A stretch of DNA of 34,608 nt from NCBI GenBank assembly GCA_009702525.1, contig WLHW01000003.1:1-34608 (forward strand). Reading direction: 5' to 3'. How positions within the stretch are numbered: the stretch's first letter is position 1; each line of letters starts with the position of its first letter. The notes below the pieces were generated by a model. The model was not told the origin of the DNA. It did no database searches and saw nothing but the letters and a program-made list of their open reading frames with translations. The stretch is from Actinomycetota bacterium (GTDB lineage Bacteria; Actinomycetota; Actinomycetes; Nanopelagicales; Nanopelagicaceae). Both the position numbers and the translations under genes were made by a program. This document shows, in pieces, positions 8,028-34,232 of this stretch.

Positions 8028-8834
8028 TTAGCGCCGTTCTTCCTTCTGCTTGCACAGCATGCAGAGAGTTGCACGAGGGAATACTTGGAGTCGGGCTTTT
8101 CCAATTGGATTGCCACACTCTTCGCAGTTTCCATACCGTTTTGAATCAATTCGTTCTAAAGCGCGCTCAGTTTGTAACACCATGTCGCGTGCATTTATCA
8201 CTAACGACATTTCATGTTCGCGTTCAAAAGTCTTAGTCCCTGCATCGGCTTGATCATCGCCAGCGCCCTCACCTGACTCTTGAATGAGTGAGTCCATTTC
8301 AATTTCAACAAGTGCTAGTTCACGACGTAGACGCTCAAGCTCTTTTGAGATGTCGGTGCGAATTACTTTCAGTTCAGCGTTAGTCCATGATGGCTCTGAC
8401 TCACTGACTACTACAGGAGTCGGTGCTCCCTTGATTGGTTTCAGTGGCGCAATCTTTTTTGTACTTTTAGCTGGACGCGGTGGGGGTGGCATAACCAAGC
8501 GGCGCTCTTCGACAACCGGAGCTACTACAGGTGCCGAAATTGTCGAGACTGAAACCGTCTGAGATTTTTCATCGACAGTCAGTGTTGTCTTTGATGGAAA
8601 GGCTTTACCTGACGCTTTTTTAACGGGGATACTTTTGATGGCGGTTTTTTTAGCCGCTACTTTCTTGATAGGCGCTTTCTTGGCAGGCGCCTTCTTAGCT
8701 ACAGCTTTTTTGGCCGCTACTTTCTTGATAGGTGCTTTCTTGGCAGGAGCCTTCTTGGCTACAGCTTTTTTCGCAGGAGCCTTCTTAGCCGGAGCCTTCT
8801 TGGCAGCGACCTTCTTTATTGGCTTCTTGGGCAT
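8028..8834 (-). CDS. DksA/TraR-type C4 zinc-finger protein with Ala/Lys/Pro-rich repeat N-terminus (start likely MPKKPIKK at 8834, or 8861)
   Basis: C-terminal CEECGNPIGKARLQVFPRATLCMLCKQKEERR zinc finger; N-terminal KKAPAKKA-type repeats; next to lspA. Confidence 0.88.
   Translation of the reverse strand: MPKKPIKKVAAKKAPAKKAPAKKAVAKKAPAKKAPIKKVAAKKAVAKKAPAKKAPIKKVAAKKTAIKSIPVKKASGKAFPSKTTLTVDEKSQTVSVSTISAPVVAPVVEERRLVMPPPPRPAKSTKKIAPLKPIKGAPTPVVVSESEPSWTNAELKVIRTDISKELERLRRELALVEIEMDSLIQESGEGAGDDQADAGTKTFEREHEMSLVINARDMVLQTERALERIDSKRYGNCEECGNPIGKARLQVFPRATLCMLCKQKEERR
8641..8820. repeat. 60-bp (20-codon) tandem repeat encoding the AKP-rich tail
   Basis: 8641-8700 and 8701-8760 are near-identical (…GCCGCTACTTTCTTGATAGGYGCTTTCTTGGCAGGMGCCTTCTTRGCTACAGCTTTTTT…); 8761-8820 is a degenerate third copy. 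Confidence 0.9.
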
Positions 8835-8934
8835 GACGCGAACCTTATGCCGATTGGGCATTAGATACCAACTGCGCCACGACCAATCTTTATCTCCTTA
8901 TGGCCTAGACTGAGTGTACTGACATAAACAGAGC

Positions 8935-26945: not shown

Positions 26946-27345
26946 TATTTACGCTCACTTGAGGAATAGTTATTTCATTAAGATTGAGGAACGTTGGCGT
27001 TTCTGAAGGTTTCATGCCAAGCAATGCCGCCGCTTTTGCCAGAGCCTCAGGCGAAGATTGCTTATCTATCTGACGTGCGATTGCTTCACGTTCATCGCTA
27101 ACCATCTTTGCTTGAAGTTTGAGGTGAGTGAGCGTAAATGCATCTTGTGCTAAAAGTGTGTTTATGAATAGAAGAGTCAGTAGTCCCAATATTCCGGCGA
27201 AAGAGACGAATGTTGCGAAGAATTTACGGCTCGCTTGTTTGCCTTCAGAGATATCAGGTACTAGCTTCAGGGCAACTTTTGAGGATCTTTCAACAAGTAT
27301 TTCGCGTGAGCGAGAAATTGCTGGAGCTAATGCGGTCATAGCCAT
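26938..27345 (-). CDS. FtsL-like septum formation protein
   Basis: 135 aa with one TM segment and a short coiled region, between rsmH and ftsI; assigned mainly by position. Confidence 0.7.
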   Translation of the reverse strand: MAMTALAPAISRSREILVERSSKVALKLVPDISEGKQASRKFFATFVSFAGILGLLTLLFINTLLAQDAFTLTHLKLQAKMVSDEREAIARQIDKQSSPEALAKAAALLGMKPSETPTFLNLNEITIPQVSVNNG

Positions 27346-28292
27346 TATGCGGCCACCCTTTCAATTGCACGAAGTCGAACCGAGGCCGAACGGGAATTTT
27401 CTTCTAACTCTTTTTCTGATGGACTTTCACTGCCTCGAATCACTAGTGAGAACTTTGCAGCGAATTCAGGAAGTTCAAATGGGAGATCTCGAGGAGTACC
27501 AGATTTTGTTGATGCAACAAAAAGCTCTTTCACTATGCGATCTTCAAGTGACTGAAACGACATAACAACTAAACGTCCACCAACAGTTAATAGTTTGAGG
27601 GCAGCTGGCAAAGCTCTTGTTATTGCACCAAGTTCGTCGTTGGTTTCAATGCGCAAAGCTTGGAAGGTGCGTTTTGCGGGATTTCCACCGGTACGACGAG
27701 TTGCTGCTGGAATAGCATTCTTAACTAAGTTCGCTAACGTACTTGTAGAGTTCAAAGGTTTAATAGCTCGTGCTTTAACAATTGATTCAACAACTCTGGT
27801 AGCAAATTTTTCTTCGCCATACGTACGTAAAATGCGCACTAATTGCCCAGGTTCGTAAGTATTTACAATCTCAGCGGCCGTCAAAGATTGTGTACGATCC
27901 ATGCGCATATCTAGTGGAGCATCTTGCGAATAAGAAAAACCACGATTACTTTCATCTAACTGCATCGATGAAACACCAAGATCGAAAAGAGCTCCTACGA
28001 TATTGGTGTAACCAAAGGATTGAACAACCTCATCGATTGAATCAAATGTTGCATGAGCCGTATGAAGTCGATCAGCATAAGGAGCAAGACGCTCAACTGC
28101 GCGACTCAGTGCTTCTTGATCTCGATCAATCCCGATAACAGTCAGCTGTGGAAATTCTTGAAGTAGCGCCTCAGTGTGTCCACCTAAACCTAGAGTTGCA
28201 TCAACTACAACAGGATTAGTGCAGGAATTTATTGAAGGGGTCAGAAGTTCGATGCATCGATCACGCATCACTGAAATATGTGCACTTGCCAT
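27345..28292 (-). CDS. rsmH: 16S rRNA (cytosine(1402)-N(4))-methyltransferase RsmH/MraW (ATG at 28292 preferred over TTG at 28307)
   Basis: VDATLGLGGHTEALL, GIDRDQEAL, FDLGVSSMQLDESNRGFSY and GRLVVMSFQSLEDRIVK. SD AAAGGGGGAG just before ATG 28292. Confidence 0.96.
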   Translation of the reverse strand: MASAHISVMRDRCIELLTPSINSCTNPVVVDATLGLGGHTEALLQEFPQLTVIGIDRDQEALSRAVERLAPYADRLHTAHATFDSIDEVVQSFGYTNIVGALFDLGVSSMQLDESNRGFSYSQDAPLDMRMDRTQSLTAAEIVNTYEPGQLVRILRTYGEEKFATRVVESIVKARAIKPLNSTSTLANLVKNAIPAATRRTGGNPAKRTFQALRIETNDELGAITRALPAALKLLTVGGRLVVMSFQSLEDRIVKELFVASTKSGTPRDLPFELPEFAAKFSLVIRGSESPSEKELEENSRSASVRLRAIERVAA

Positions 28293-28348
28293 CACTCCCC
28301 CTTTCAATAAACAATCCCTAACTACTTTCTTCCTTTACCTTTATTTCC

Positions 28349-28455: not shown

Positions 28456-28887
28456 TTAGAAAAGTCCTGGAAAGACCTCCTCTGAAACATCAGCAAAACT
28501 CTTTTCGCGATCTGCTAAATATTCATTCCAAGAAGTTGCATCCCAAATTTCAACGCGAGTGTTTGCGCCAATAACAACGCAATCTTTTTCAAGTCCTGCA
28601 TATGTACGAAGACCTTGTGGAATTGTTATGCGACCTTGACGATCAGGAATTTCATCGTGTGCACCTGCAAACATCACACGGCTGTAATCGCGTGCTGATT
28701 TTGCAGTGACTGGCGCTTGTTTTAGCGTCTCAGTAATAACTGTGAATTCATTTGTTGGAAAAACATAAAGACAACGTTCTTGGCCTTTAGTAATTACTAA
28801 ACCTGATGCAAGCTCTTCACGAAATTTCGCTGGAAGAATCAAACGACCTTTTTCATCAAGGCGCGGTTCGTGGGTGCCTAGAAACAT
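28456..28887 (-). CDS. mraZ: Transcriptional regulator MraZ (AbrB-like)
   Basis: [26 protein letters not shown] and [18 protein letters not shown], the two MraZ repeats; heads the dcw cluster. Confidence 0.98.
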
Positions 28888-28940
28888 TTTCCGCGCCCCC
28901 TTCCCCAGGTTCGCTAGCCGTGTGGATCCTCGGCTTAGTT

Positions 28941-29020
28941 CCCCACTTTACTCCACTTTCCTCCTTTTTCAACCACCTTTCGCCACTTTTTGCCCTTTTC
29001 CACCCACAATCCCCCACCTT
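28941..29020 (-). promoter_or_regulatory. Direct-repeat array upstream of mraZ, candidate MraZ-binding operator (8 decamers)
   Basis: Plus-strand decamers in exact 10-bp register: CCCCACTTTA CTCCACTTTC CTCCTTTTTC AACCACCTTT CGCCACTTTT TGCCCTTTTC CACCCACAAT CCCCCACCTT; minus-strand consensus AAAGTGGnG. Confidence 0.8.
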
Positions 29021-29028
29021 TCAGGCAT

Positions 29029-29054
29029 AAAAAAAGACCCTCCGTAAGAGGGCC
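29029..29054 (-). terminator. Intrinsic terminator downstream of the DUF3040 gene
   Basis: Minus strand GGCCCTC-TTACG-GAGGGTC followed by TTTTTTT. Confidence 0.88.
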
Positions 29055-29071
29055 TTGTCACTGGTTATCGG

Positions 29072-29425
29072 CTACTGATTATTGCGCTTATCCCAACGGG
29101 ACTGCAGTTTTGAGTTCAAACCTGGCGCTGTGCGAGCGCGCTTCTGCTTACCTGAGCCCGAGATAGCTCCGACAGATGACAGGGCCAGGATGATCCCAGC
29201 CAAAGCGATGACAAAGCCAAGGACTCCAACTGGCGTCATTTTGGCGATGAGGCCGGTAAAGAGGACTGCGATTCCCAAAAGAACAAGACCTAACGCGGCC
29301 AGAGTTCTGGAGCGCCGTGGAGAAGGCCCGCTGCCAGAGAGCGCGGAAAACAGGCGTGGGTCTTCAGTTAATAGCGCTGCCTCCATCTCCTGGAGCATTC
29401 GCTTCTCATGATCTGATAACGGCAT
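29072..29425 (-). CDS. DUF3040 domain membrane protein
   Basis: MPLSDHEKRMLQEMEAALLTEDPRLFSAL plus two TM segments, typical DUF3040. Confidence 0.9.
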   Translation of the reverse strand: MPLSDHEKRMLQEMEAALLTEDPRLFSALSGSGPSPRRSRTLAALGLVLLGIAVLFTGLIAKMTPVGVLGFVIALAGIILALSSVGAISGSGKQKRARTAPGLNSKLQSRWDKRNNQ

Positions 29426-29457
29426 GGGTCAACAATAGAAGGTTTTATGCTGCCCCG

Positions 29458-30627
29458 CTACTCGTCTTCGTGGCCCTTGATGAGTCGAGCCGGACGCACA
29501 CTGCCTGCACCAAATCGCGCCCTGGCTCTATCTATAGCCCCATCGGCCTGGCGCCATCCGCTCTCTCGTGCGCCTAAGACCATCTGCTCAGGCGCCCCAC
29601 TGCTTAAGTTCTCTAGCGAAACACCAACTAAACGCAGGCGAGCTCTTTCAATTTTGAGTGCCTTATACAGACCCTTCACGACCTCGTATATCTCCTGGGT
29701 TCCATCTAAGGGCAGAGCAAGAGTTTTGGATCTATTGATAGTAGTGAAGTCGGCAAAACGAACCTTGATCGAAATGGTCTTGGCAAATAAATCTTTATCG
29801 CGCAATCTGGCCGATGCCCGTTCTGTTAATCGTAAAAACTCCGTCAAGATCTGAGCGGGATCATCTAAGTCTTGAGGAAACGTCTCGGCGGCACTAATAC
29901 TTTTTTCGGCATCGTTAGGTGAGACATCTCGATAATCTCGACCCCATGCCAATTCATAGAGGGAAGCTCCACTGGCTTCACCTAATGCACGAATAAGAGT
30001 TGCACGTGGCACATTCGCTATGTCCTCAATTGTTCGAAGACCTAAGCGTTCTAATGTCTCTGCAGTCTTAGGACCGACTCCCCACATTGCTTTGATTGGT
30101 AAGGGATGCAAGAAAGTAAGAATGCGATCGGCAGTAATCTCCAACATCCCATCTGGTTTGCAGTGTTGAGATGCAAGTTTTGCAATGAACTTTGATGGTG
30201 CAATTCCAACAGAACATGTGATTCCCTCTTGCGATTCAACTTTGGCACGAATTGCCGCCGCGATTTCGCGCGGAGTACCTAATAAACGTTGTGCTCCACT
30301 GACATCTAGGAAAGCTTCATCCAATGAGATGGGCTCCACCCAAGGTGTAAAACTTTCAAAAATCTCCATAATGTGGCCAGAGACTTCTTGGTATCTAGGC
30401 ATATCAACAGGGAGAAAAATCGCATGAGGTGCTAACCGTCGTGCGCGACCTACTGGCATCGCTGAGTGGATTCCAAATTTGCGTGCTTCATAATTTGCCG
30501 CAGATACAACACCACGTGCGCCCATTCCAATGACAACTGCCTTGCCTTTAAGTTCGGGATTATCGCGCTCGGCAACGGAGGCAAAGAATGCATCCATATC
30601 CACATGCAGGATTGAGGCCGATGTCAT
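29458..30627 (-). CDS. dinB: Y-family DNA polymerase IV (DinB), catalytic residues intact
   Basis: HVDMDAFFASVA, SLDEAFLDVSGA, SVGIAPSKFIAKLAS and MWGVGPKTAETLERLG. Confidence 0.95.
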   Translation of the reverse strand: MTSASILHVDMDAFFASVAERDNPELKGKAVVIGMGARGVVSAANYEARKFGIHSAMPVGRARRLAPHAIFLPVDMPRYQEVSGHIMEIFESFTPWVEPISLDEAFLDVSGAQRLLGTPREIAAAIRAKVESQEGITCSVGIAPSKFIAKLASQHCKPDGMLEITADRILTFLHPLPIKAMWGVGPKTAETLERLGLRTIEDIANVPRATLIRALGEASGASLYELAWGRDYRDVSPNDAEKSISAAETFPQDLDDPAQILTEFLRLTERASARLRDKDLFAKTISIKVRFADFTTINRSKTLALPLDGTQEIYEVVKGLYKALKIERARLRLVGVSLENLSSGAPEQMVLGARESGWRQADGAIDRARARFGAGSVRPARLIKGHEDE

Positions 30628-33600
30628 ATTGCCAGCGTACTTTCTTTAGCCCGCCAACTTTCATATGCCGCGCGTAAATCCCATGCACCTGTGCCCCGGA
30701 TTGAAATCCCACGCGCGCCTGTGCGGCGAGTCTGCCCTCTAACCAGTAGCAGGGATGTCGAATACAGCGTGCTGGCGTAATCTGCTTGCATATCAGTGAA
30801 AAAAGCTGAATCGCTACAGCCATATCCATCATCGAGAGTTAAGAAAATTACACGCTTTCCTGATCGCACTGGGGGTGTCTGCAGTGCAACTTTGATGCCG
30901 GCTACAAGGACACTAGAACCAGAGCGTTGAGTAAGTAACTGAGATGATCTCACCGCCCCGATAGCGTTGAGAAATTCACTATAAAACTCAATGAGGTGCG
31001 CGGACATGTCGATACCTAAGCGCTCTACTTCGTGACGGACCATTTCTGCTGGCTTCATATCGGGTAGGCCGCTACTAATCAGAGCGGGGGCTGCAAAAGC
31101 TAAGTTCATCTGCGCCCCAGAAATAGTTTTACTTGGAGAGCGTTGCAAGTCAGAGAAATGTAATAAGAGATCGCGACGATTGACATCGGTATGCAGGCGA
31201 TCAAATGCACCAGTTAATATCGCACTCTCTGTAACCGGTGCGCTACTTCCAGAGCGATGAACAAAATCACCGAGATCGGTATAAGGGCGACCGGCAATAA
31301 TTGATCTGATTTCTCCATCACTGATCTTTTCAATAGTCGATAGCGCTATGCGAATAGCAGCACCTTGATCTTCAACCCGGTATACCGAATCAGACTCATT
31401 CACATCTAAGGGTGCAACAGTGATTCCCATCTGGCGTACTTCATCAACGATTAAACGTTTGGGGTACATGCCAGGATCATGCGTAAGTACTCCAGCTAAA
31501 AAAGCTGCAGGGTAATGTGTCTTGAGCCAAGCCGATTGATATGTAGGTAGCGCAAAGGCTGCAGCATGTGCTTTGCAAAAACCAAAGGATGCAAAGGCGC
31601 GTAGTAAATCCCAAATCTGAGTAATAATTCCCAGCTCATAACCCTTTGCCGTTGCAGCAGGGAAGAACCAATCGCAGACTTCTTGCTGACCCACTTTGTC
31701 TCCCAAGGCGCGGCGTTTTTCATCTGCGCTAGCAAGGGATGCACCAGTCATCGTTGCAATGATTTCGATAACCTGTTCATGGAAAACAACTACCCCTTCG
31801 GTATCACGCAAAATCTCATAGAGATCAGGGTGAATTATCTGGGCTGGGCTCCACCCATGCCGGGCCTTTAAAAACGGCGTAATCATGTCGCCTTTAACTG
31901 GGCCGGGTCTAAAAAGTGAGATATCGATAATTAAATCGGTAAAAGTTTTGGGCTCTAACTTTCCAACTAACTCACGCTGGCCTGGACTCTCTATCTGAAA
32001 CATACCGAGGGTTCGCGTTGATTGGATTAAATCAAATGTTGCCGGGTCATCTATTGGCACAGTATCAATATCAACTTTTTCATTCTGGGCACGTTCGATT
32101 TCAGTCAGTGCATATGAAATTGCCGACTGCATGCGTACACCTAAGACATCTAGTTTTAATAAGCCAATGGCCTCAACGTCATCTTTATCAAAGACCACCA
32201 TGGGGTAACCGCTAGCACTAGCCATCAGTGGGGTGCGATCTAATAAACCGCCATCAGATAAAACGATGGCACATGGATGCATCGCTAGGTGTCGCGGTAG
32301 ACCATCAAGGCGTTGAGCAAGTGCAATCGTCATGGCAGTCAACGGCGCTGAAACGTTGAGAGATTTTAACTCCGGTAGGTTTTCGAGAACGCTAGAAATA
32401 TTGCGCGCACGCACATGTGGCATTGACTTAGCAAGTAAGTCAATCTCCATCGCGGGCAAACCAAGTGCTGCACCTGCATCTCGAATTGCATGGCGAGCAC
32501 GATAGGTATCGACCATTGCAACAGTGGCGCACCGTGATTGATTATTAGGTGTATCCCAGTTGGTATCACCGTAGCGTTTAAAAACCATGTCATAGATCTC
32601 AAGGCGACGGTGTGATTCAACATCGATATCTATGTCAGGCAAAGCTCGACGCAATGGCGAACAAAAACGCTCCATTAATAAGCCGTGCTGCATCGGTTCA
32701 ACACCAGAGATTCCAAGTAAATGGCAGATCAGTGAGCCCGCACCGCTGCCGCGTGCAGCAACGCGAATACCAGCACTTCGTGCCATGTCACAAATATCGG
32801 CAACAGTTAAAAAATACGATTCAAAACCAAGGGTTGCAACCGTGGCTAGCTCATCATCTAAACGCAGGCGCGCACGCTTAATAGTTGTGGCATCGCTATA
32901 GCGCCAATTAATACCGGCCTCGCTGCGCGTGCGTAAAAGTGTACGCATCTGATGTGCTGATTCAGCACCAACAACGTGTGGCTCAGGTAAGTGCGCACCT
33001 CCCAAGCCAATATCGCGTGCAGGTGATAACAGACAACGCTCGGCCCACTCTCTAGTCGTTGCTAGTAGTTGCCGCGGTGTGCGCTCACCTGCGGCGCGTG
33101 CAATTTCAGCGGCCAAAGTAATCATCTCGTCGCCAGATTTTAAAAAGCCTTCAGCATTAGTGCGTTCAACGTGACGCGGGTGCAGCGGTACTAATTGACG
33201 AGCGCAATCTAAGACATCTGCTACAGGTCCATCGATACGATCTCGCATGCGAACCGCATTTGTAATAACTGCATCGATGTCATGATCTCGCGCAAAAATT
33301 AATGACTTAGCGGCCTGCGATGTAGAACGTGGGCCCTTACCTGCAGCTAAATGCGATATGCACTCAATTGCATTACCAGCAAATAAATCGCGTGTCATAT
33401 TAAATATCGTAAAAGCAGCATCACTACGGTTATCGGTTAATAATCTACCCGCAGGTGATTCAGGTCCGTGTAGTGCATAAAGATTTGAGCTGTAGTGACT
33501 AAAGCGCTGTAAGAATTCAAGGGTCATAATCGGATTACGGGTATCGCTCACCATCGCCAGCGATGTCAGCAGGCGACACAGCGAGCGCCATCCTCCATCA

Positions 33601-33851
33601 CTGTGCGCCAACAACGTAATACGATTTTTTGGGCTGCCAATATCAATTCCTAGATTGACTCCAATAATTGGTGCGATGCCAAAATCAACACAACTCTGTG
33701 CAAAGCGAACCGCGCCTGCTAAGCCATCACGATCAGTCAGGGCTAGTGCAGGCATTTCAAACTCTGCAGCCCGGGCAACTAAATCTGCTGGTTGTGTGGT
33801 GCCGTATTTAAGTGAGTATGCACTTGCAACGTTCAGGTGTATGAAACTCAT
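30624..33851 (-). CDS. dnaE2: DnaE2-like C-family (error-prone type) DNA polymerase, degenerate PHP domain
   Basis: C-family motifs RGSGAGSL, PDIDIDVESHRR and GLLKLDVLGVR. ATGA overlaps with both neighbours: start ATG at 33851 (MSFIHLN), stop TGA overlapping the dinB ATG. Confidence 0.9.
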   Translation of the reverse strand: MSFIHLNVASAYSLKYGTTQPADLVARAAEFEMPALALTDRDGLAGAVRFAQSCVDFGIAPIIGVNLGIDIGSPKNRITLLAHSDGGWRSLCRLLTSLAMVSDTRNPIMTLEFLQRFSHYSSNLYALHGPESPAGRLLTDNRSDAAFTIFNMTRDLFAGNAIECISHLAAGKGPRSTSQAAKSLIFARDHDIDAVITNAVRMRDRIDGPVADVLDCARQLVPLHPRHVERTNAEGFLKSGDEMITLAAEIARAAGERTPRQLLATTREWAERCLLSPARDIGLGGAHLPEPHVVGAESAHQMRTLLRTRSEAGINWRYSDATTIKRARLRLDDELATVATLGFESYFLTVADICDMARSAGIRVAARGSGAGSLICHLLGISGVEPMQHGLLMERFCSPLRRALPDIDIDVESHRRLEIYDMVFKRYGDTNWDTPNNQSRCATVAMVDTYRARHAIRDAGAALGLPAMEIDLLAKSMPHVRARNISSVLENLPELKSLNVSAPLTAMTIALAQRLDGLPRHLAMHPCAIVLSDGGLLDRTPLMASASGYPMVVFDKDDVEAIGLLKLDVLGVRMQSAISYALTEIERAQNEKVDIDTVPIDDPATFDLIQSTRTLGMFQIESPGQRELVGKLEPKTFTDLIIDISLFRPGPVKGDMITPFLKARHGWSPAQIIHPDLYEILRDTEGVVVFHEQVIEIIATMTGASLASADEKRRALGDKVGQQEVCDWFFPAATAKGYELGIITQIWDLLRAFASFGFCKAHAAAFALPTYQSAWLKTHYPAAFLAGVLTHDPGMYPKRLIVDEVRQMGITVAPLDVNESDSVYRVEDQGAAIRIALSTIEKISDGEIRSIIAGRPYTDLGDFVHRSGSSAPVTESAILTGAFDRLHTDVNRRDLLLHFSDLQRSPSKTISGAQMNLAFAAPALISSGLPDMKPAEMVRHEVERLGIDMSAHLIEFYSEFLNAIGAVRSSQLLTQRSGSSVLVAGIKVALQTPPVRSGKRVIFLTLDDGYGCSDSAFFTDMQADYASTLYSTSLLLVRGQTRRTGARGISIRGTGAWDLRAAYESWRAKESTLAI

Positions 33852-34129
33852 ACCGATCGGATAATCCACTGACCGCTAAGCTCATCGCGTTCGAGTTCAA
33901 ATGTTGTTAGCGAGCCAATAGGTGCAGCTTCTACGCGCCATACCGCTCGGGCTTGATCATCAGGGCGATACTTGCCATCACTAATTCGGTTCCACCATCC
34001 CCCGGCTTCACACCACCTGGATAACACTGCATGGATACGAAAGCGCCTGCCCTTGAAAGTAAATTCAATCGGCGTTGTTGCACCATCGATCGTGACATCG
34101 TGGGCGGGGTTAATCTGCGGGACTGACAT
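33848..34129 (-). CDS. DUF6504-like small protein of the translesion cassette (start likely MSVPQIN at 34129)
   Basis: Small ORF coupled to dnaE2 by an ATGA overlap; SD GAAGGAG before the internal ATG. The ORF-track start at 34207 would place the SOS box inside the CDS. Confidence 0.75.
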   Translation of the reverse strand: MSVPQINPAHDVTIDGATTPIEFTFKGRRFRIHAVLSRWCEAGGWWNRISDGKYRPDDQARAVWRVEAAPIGSLTTFELERDELSGQWIIRSV

Positions 34130-34160
34130 CGCGGGCAAAGACTCCTTCAGGCTGTGGATA

Positions 34161-34178
34161 TTCGAACAGGTGTTCGAA
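34161..34178. promoter_or_regulatory. LexA/SOS box
   Basis: TTCGAACAGGTGTTCGAA, with 8-bp perfect inverted arms around GG; matches the actinobacterial/Gram-positive LexA consensus TCGAAC-N4-GTTCGA. Confidence 0.92.
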
Positions 34179-34232
34179 AAATACTCCCCTGGGCTGACAA
34201 AAGACAAGTGGTGGCGCGTGTCGGCTCTATAA

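Follow-up and report, generated by a model that had tools for sequence, protein, structure and literature searches.

The mraZ locus and its gene product

Few bacterial regulators are as widely conserved as MraZ. In the window analysed here, a stretch of 34,608 nucleotides from a genome of the Nanopelagicaceae (acI), mraZ lies on the minus strand and a head-to-tail array of decamers is found directly upstream of it, with the mraZ ATG at 28887. The features of the locus are given below, together with the scores of eight candidate MraZ boxes against a PWM described further on.

27345..28307 (-): mraW/rsmH, next cluster gene after mraZ (PF01795, E 7e-106)
28456..28887 (-): mraZ, 143 aa, first gene of the dcw cluster (PF02381 twice, E 4.9e-41)
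28942..28951 (-): putative MraZ box 1, GTAAAGTGGG, PWM 11.8; holds the -10
28945..28950 (-): -10 hexamer TAAAGT, inside box 1
28952..28961 (-): putative MraZ box 2, GGAAAGTGGA, PWM 12.8; promoter spacer
28962..28971 (-): putative MraZ box 3, TGAAAAAGGA, PWM 2.9; compromised by the -35
28967..28972 (-): -35 hexamer TTGAAA, spanning boxes 4/3; 16-bp spacer to the -10
28972..28981 (-): putative MraZ box 4, GAAAGGTGGT, PWM 7.3
28982..28991 (-): putative MraZ box 5, AAAAAGTGGC, PWM 6.8
28992..29001 (-): putative MraZ box 6, GGAAAAGGGC, PWM 5.2; weak core
29003..29012 (-): putative MraZ box 7, GGATTGTGGG, after an 11-bp step; PWM 7.9 one base outward, -3.2 at strict 10-bp register
29013..29022 (-): putative MraZ box 8, GAAAGGTGGG, PWM 8.7 one base outward, -2.2 at strict 10-bp register
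29034..29056 (-): intrinsic terminator of the upstream DUF3040 gene (10-bp stem and T run)
29072..29425 (-): upstream gene for a DUF3040 protein (PF11239, E 8.8e-22)

The array fills the gap between the promoter and the DUF3040-gene terminator, which bounds it. TTGAAA-16-TAAAGT is the sole sigma-70-like site found on the relevant strand, and it sits within the array. TAAAGT is kept in 80 of 81 relatives, and TTGA stands at the matching offset in 80% of the 81. With the -10 in box 1 and the -35 in boxes 3 and 4, the presumed operator therefore overlies the promoter. An RNA-level element at the mraZ leader was considered as well; it is not supported, because Rfam matched no RNA family in 28456-29500 and the leader RNA folds no better than shuffles (z 0.17).

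Judged from its sequence and predicted fold, the gene encodes a normal MraZ. Both MraZ/AbrB-like domains (PF02381) are present, and so are both DxxxR motifs, in which D11, R15 and R86 are invariant and D82 nearly invariant among 41 homologues. An AF2 monomer model from a 41-sequence alignment (pLDDT 87.6) has the MraZ fold: its structural matches are the MraZ proteins of M. genitalium and M. pneumoniae, among them M. genitalium 9qlg (E 4.2e-14), with a TM of ~0.8 to 9qlg, 1n0e, 9r4j and 9sz7. Two of these are cryo-EM entries released in February 2026: 9r4j, titled as MraZ 'in complex with its promoter', and 9sz7, titled as MraZ 'in complex with 4 box promoter'.

Geometry and conservation of the array

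The repeat is real, as the sequence-only reading of this DNA had proposed. Its lag-10 identity (28941-29020) is 43/70, compared with 16.8 +/- 3.6 over all 80-bp segments of the 34.6-kb stretch; no second locus in the window reaches 43, and neither did any of 20,000 dinucleotide shuffles. Permitting any lag from 6 to 15 in such shuffles still gives P ~0.0002, and the enrichment at lag 10 extends to both halves, being stronger in the promoter half (28941-28980, P 0.0009) than in the distal one (28981-29020, P 0.015).

To avoid circularity, we trained the box PWM outside the family, on 60 non-Nanopelagicaceae genomes (consensus GTAAAGTGGA; false-positive thresholds 4.9 at 1% and 1.6 at 5%). With this matrix, boxes 1-6 score in register and boxes 7 and 8 only one base further out, and therefore the array consists of eight GTGG-cored boxes with a single 11-bp step. 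From box 1 to box 8 the steps are 10, 10, 10, 10, 10, 11 and 10 bp, the long one falling between boxes 6 and 7. The span first assigned was 28941-29020, whereas the eight boxes in fact extend over 28942-29022. The phasing is not exactly 10 bp as had been stated: the register slips by 1 bp in this array and by 0-2 bp from box 6 outward in relatives. Nor do the boxes grade simply from good to degenerate. The core is degenerate in boxes 3 and 6, the poorest match being box 3, which carries the -35, and boxes 7 and 8 match well when moved by one base. Box 3 is probably poorest because boxes 1-3 double as promoter and operator; in fact, the positions of these three boxes are constrained also by the promoter itself.

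We followed the array through 81 Nanopelagicaceae promoters, each more than 25% different from every other. Counting a downstream position as box 0, exact-register matches for boxes 0-8 occur in 2, 100, 100, 98, 85, 80, 62, 46 and 17% of them, and off-register matches in 0-10%. Loss of the 10-bp register in close relatives, which the sequence-only reading had named as a counter-argument, is not seen for boxes 1-5 and is partly seen for boxes 6-8. Box 5 is unshifted in 42 of 43 cases. Box 6 is shifted by 0, 1 or 2 bp in 22, 8 and 2 promoters and box 7 in 19, 13 and 8, and the commonest shift of box 8 is 2 bp (10/20). Of 21 cases with a 1- or 2-bp slip in the interval from box 5 to box 7, 14 return to a 10-bp step immediately afterwards, a small sample. 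Boxes 5-8 nevertheless remain in register well above expectation (genus-averaged 0.44 vs 0.13 +/- 0.03 in shuffles). MraZ itself is 94-100% identical in named relatives, including Ca. Planktophila and other acI-type assemblies.

Other Actinomycetes and known MraZ operators

In a comparison set of 82 mraZ promoters from other Actinomycetes, exact-register matches for boxes 0-8 occur in 60, 99, 100, 99, 70, 22, 7, 12 and 6%. As in acI, three boxes lie on the -35, the spacer and the -10. These promoters usually add box 4 (70%) and/or the downstream box 0 (60%), whereas acI promoters have box 0 in only 2% and add boxes 5-8. From the promoter sequences compared, the three-box core is class-wide, and the Nanopelagicaceae have lost box 0 and extended the row upstream, reaching up to eight sites where three to five are usual. 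This bears out the earlier suggestion that the array is longer than usual, in-register matches at boxes 5, 6 and 7 being commoner in the family than in the rest of the class. Array length alone is not unique to the family, because sporadic long arrays occur elsewhere (e.g. 8 boxes in L228 and 7 in L262).

Opposite-strand, inverted runs of at least two MraZ-like boxes, e.g. GGTGGAGCGAAGTGGAGG, were observed in 20 of the 82 other Actinomycetes, where shuffles predict ~0.8. They lie ~70-216 bp upstream of box 1 (e.g. L227, L231, L193, L262, L138), several preceded by GGTCAG, and are near-absent in Nanopelagicaceae (1/81). Such runs possibly constitute a second, divergent MraZ site. Across the class, mraZ was detected in 109 of 118 genomes and in none of the nine from the large-genome genus g19 (G083, G165, G184 and others).

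The E. coli MraZ operator consists of three TGGG repeats. In B. cenocepacia, a fragment with four 7-nt repeats separated by 3-nt spacers is shifted by MraZ in EMSA (PMC7761207). Both operators share with acI GTG(G)-cored direct repeats with a 10-bp period upstream of mraZ, but their repeats are placed over the TSS, on the downstream side of the -10, whereas the acI row overlaps both promoter hexamers and continues upstream of them. The Mollicutes operator, (AAAGTGKN3)3 (Fisunov 2016, as quoted in PMC5282649), resembles the acI one in having direct repeats of the AAAGTGG type with a 10-bp period at the promoter of mraZ, and the MraZ protein has the same fold. The Mollicutes operator and the M. 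genitalium complexes 9r4j and 9sz7, going by their titles, have 3-4 boxes, in contrast to up to eight with an 11-bp slip in acI; no MraZ complex with more than four boxes was found among the structural matches. Mollicute HsdC operators, which belong to a different protein and gene target and have slightly different spacing, carry similar GTG-core direct repeats and are bound by MraZ in vitro (PMC5282649), so that MraZ tolerates other spacings.

We also searched the genus genomes with the pair pattern AAAGTGG-N3-AAAGTGG, allowing at most one mismatch. Of the 31 genus members, 30 have the pair at the mraZ promoter; for three of these the assignment relies on the matched sequence alone. Elsewhere it gives 20 scattered matches, compared with 23 for a reversed-pattern control. 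As far as this pattern can tell, mraZ appears to be the only target, and the operator would thus be autoregulatory. In searches for further arrays in the genus and in the genome of the window itself (assembly 76% complete), only the mraZ promoter rose above the control.

A probable extended operator for MraZ autorepression

The adjacent gene, the box consensus, the 10-bp register, the promoter overlap and the class-wide conservation strongly support the MraZ-operator identity that had been suggested from the sequence. We consider it very probable that the array is an operator for MraZ autorepression, of a known type but lengthened in this lineage. Binding by MraZ is what we infer from these features, with repression as the direction of control taken from work in E. 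coli and mycoplasma.

To explain the arrangement we propose that ring-forming MraZ reads the GTGG-cored boxes on one strand. As MraZ accumulates, it would occupy consecutive boxes lying on the -35 and -10 and exclude RNA polymerase, lowering transcription of mraZ-mraW-ftsL-ftsI and downstream genes. Boxes 1-4, which cover the promoter, would form the core. The upstream boxes 5-8 would replace the downstream box 0 of most other Actinomycetes, raising avidity and occupancy, also at low MraZ; probably, a ring could then slide along the row or be joined by a second one. Ring-like multivalent binding, which the sequence-only reading had raised, is plausible by analogy because MraZ-DNA cryo-EM complexes exist, one of them titled with a '4 box promoter'.

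The most serious competing explanation concerns the role of the distal boxes and leaves the MraZ-operator identity untouched: the functional operator would be boxes 1-4 or 1-5 only, and boxes 6-8 decaying or weakly selected duplicates. Conservation does drop outward (62, 46 and 17%) while the register loosens, and, as far as the title of PDB entry 9sz7 tells, four boxes are enough to obtain an MraZ complex. Against it, when steps are flexible, 21% of promoters have at least three of the four distal boxes above the 1% level, compared with 0.4% of shuffles, and the distal zone has a strand bias of 150:12 for GTGG over CCAC. Moreover, the nearest relatives retain all eight boxes and the 11-bp step, with GTGG kept while the bases between the cores vary. 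We regard this reduced operator as a real contender, if somewhat less likely than not.

The other explanations fare far worse. Phased A-tracts could bend the DNA and activate the promoter in the manner of an UP element, with no repressor role, and A3-A5 tracts do recur every 10 bp in boxes 1-5. However, in other families the A positions are poorly kept (0.40-0.56) compared with GTGG (0.75-0.92), and distal acI boxes often lack A-tracts but retain GTGGGG, which makes this account very unlikely. Slightly less credible still are two further proposals, on a par with each other. Promoter constraint together with a G-rich spacer or composition, and no MraZ operator, would fit the coincidence of boxes 1 and 3 with the promoter hexamers, but boxes 2, 4 and 5 lie outside the hexamers and are nonetheless 80-100% in register, and shuffles that keep the composition fail to reproduce the array. 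A G-quadruplex promoter element, reported for S. aureus mraZ (PMC11796246), would account for the G-rich strand upstream of mraZ. Such a structure calls for four G-tracts of at least 3 with short loops in any register, whereas the cores here are mostly GG, 8 bp apart, and would give two-tetrad structures at best. It needs neither the 10-bp register, which is conserved, nor the T of GTGG (T 0.52-1.00 in 7 of 8 boxes), and any row of MraZ boxes will contain successive GG cores anyway. Least likely of all is an operator for a different regulator, for instance MtrA. In the actinobacterium Dietzia, MtrA binds the mraZ promoter and controls the gene (PMC9602371), but it has further targets, whereas the motif here fits MraZ boxes and, within the genus, is found above control level only at mraZ.

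Within the MraZ-operator reading, the register slip could have a structural meaning. Two adjacent rings might bind: one, fixed on boxes 1-4, would shut off the promoter, and the other would sit on boxes 5/6-8. Slack of 0-2 bp at the junction would then be tolerated because it falls between rings. The 10-bp step that follows the slip in most cases weakly favours such a junction of two in-register blocks. We hold the two-ring arrangement to be rather improbable; if true, autorepression would be more cooperative (steeper) than in the 3-4-box operators studied so far.

The kind of operator is thus already known, and what is particular to the lineage is the upstream extension with its loosened register. 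Among the acI bacteria, which are streamlined and very abundant in fresh water, box number ranges naturally across the lineage from three or four to eight, with an unchanged promoter core and graded register slack. Such a series makes it possible to ask directly how dcw autorepression depends on the number of boxes and their spacing.

Two other features of the window deserve mention. Beside mraZ, at 29458-34207 (-), genes for a Y-family polymerase, a DnaE-type polymerase (1081 aa) and a DUF6504 protein stand in a row that resembles an imuB-dnaE2 mutagenesis cassette. Further away, the gene at 8028-8861 (-) encodes a histone-H1-like KKAPAKKA repeat tail (HC2) fused to a DksA/TraR zinc finger, with 60-bp DNA repeats at 8646-8816.
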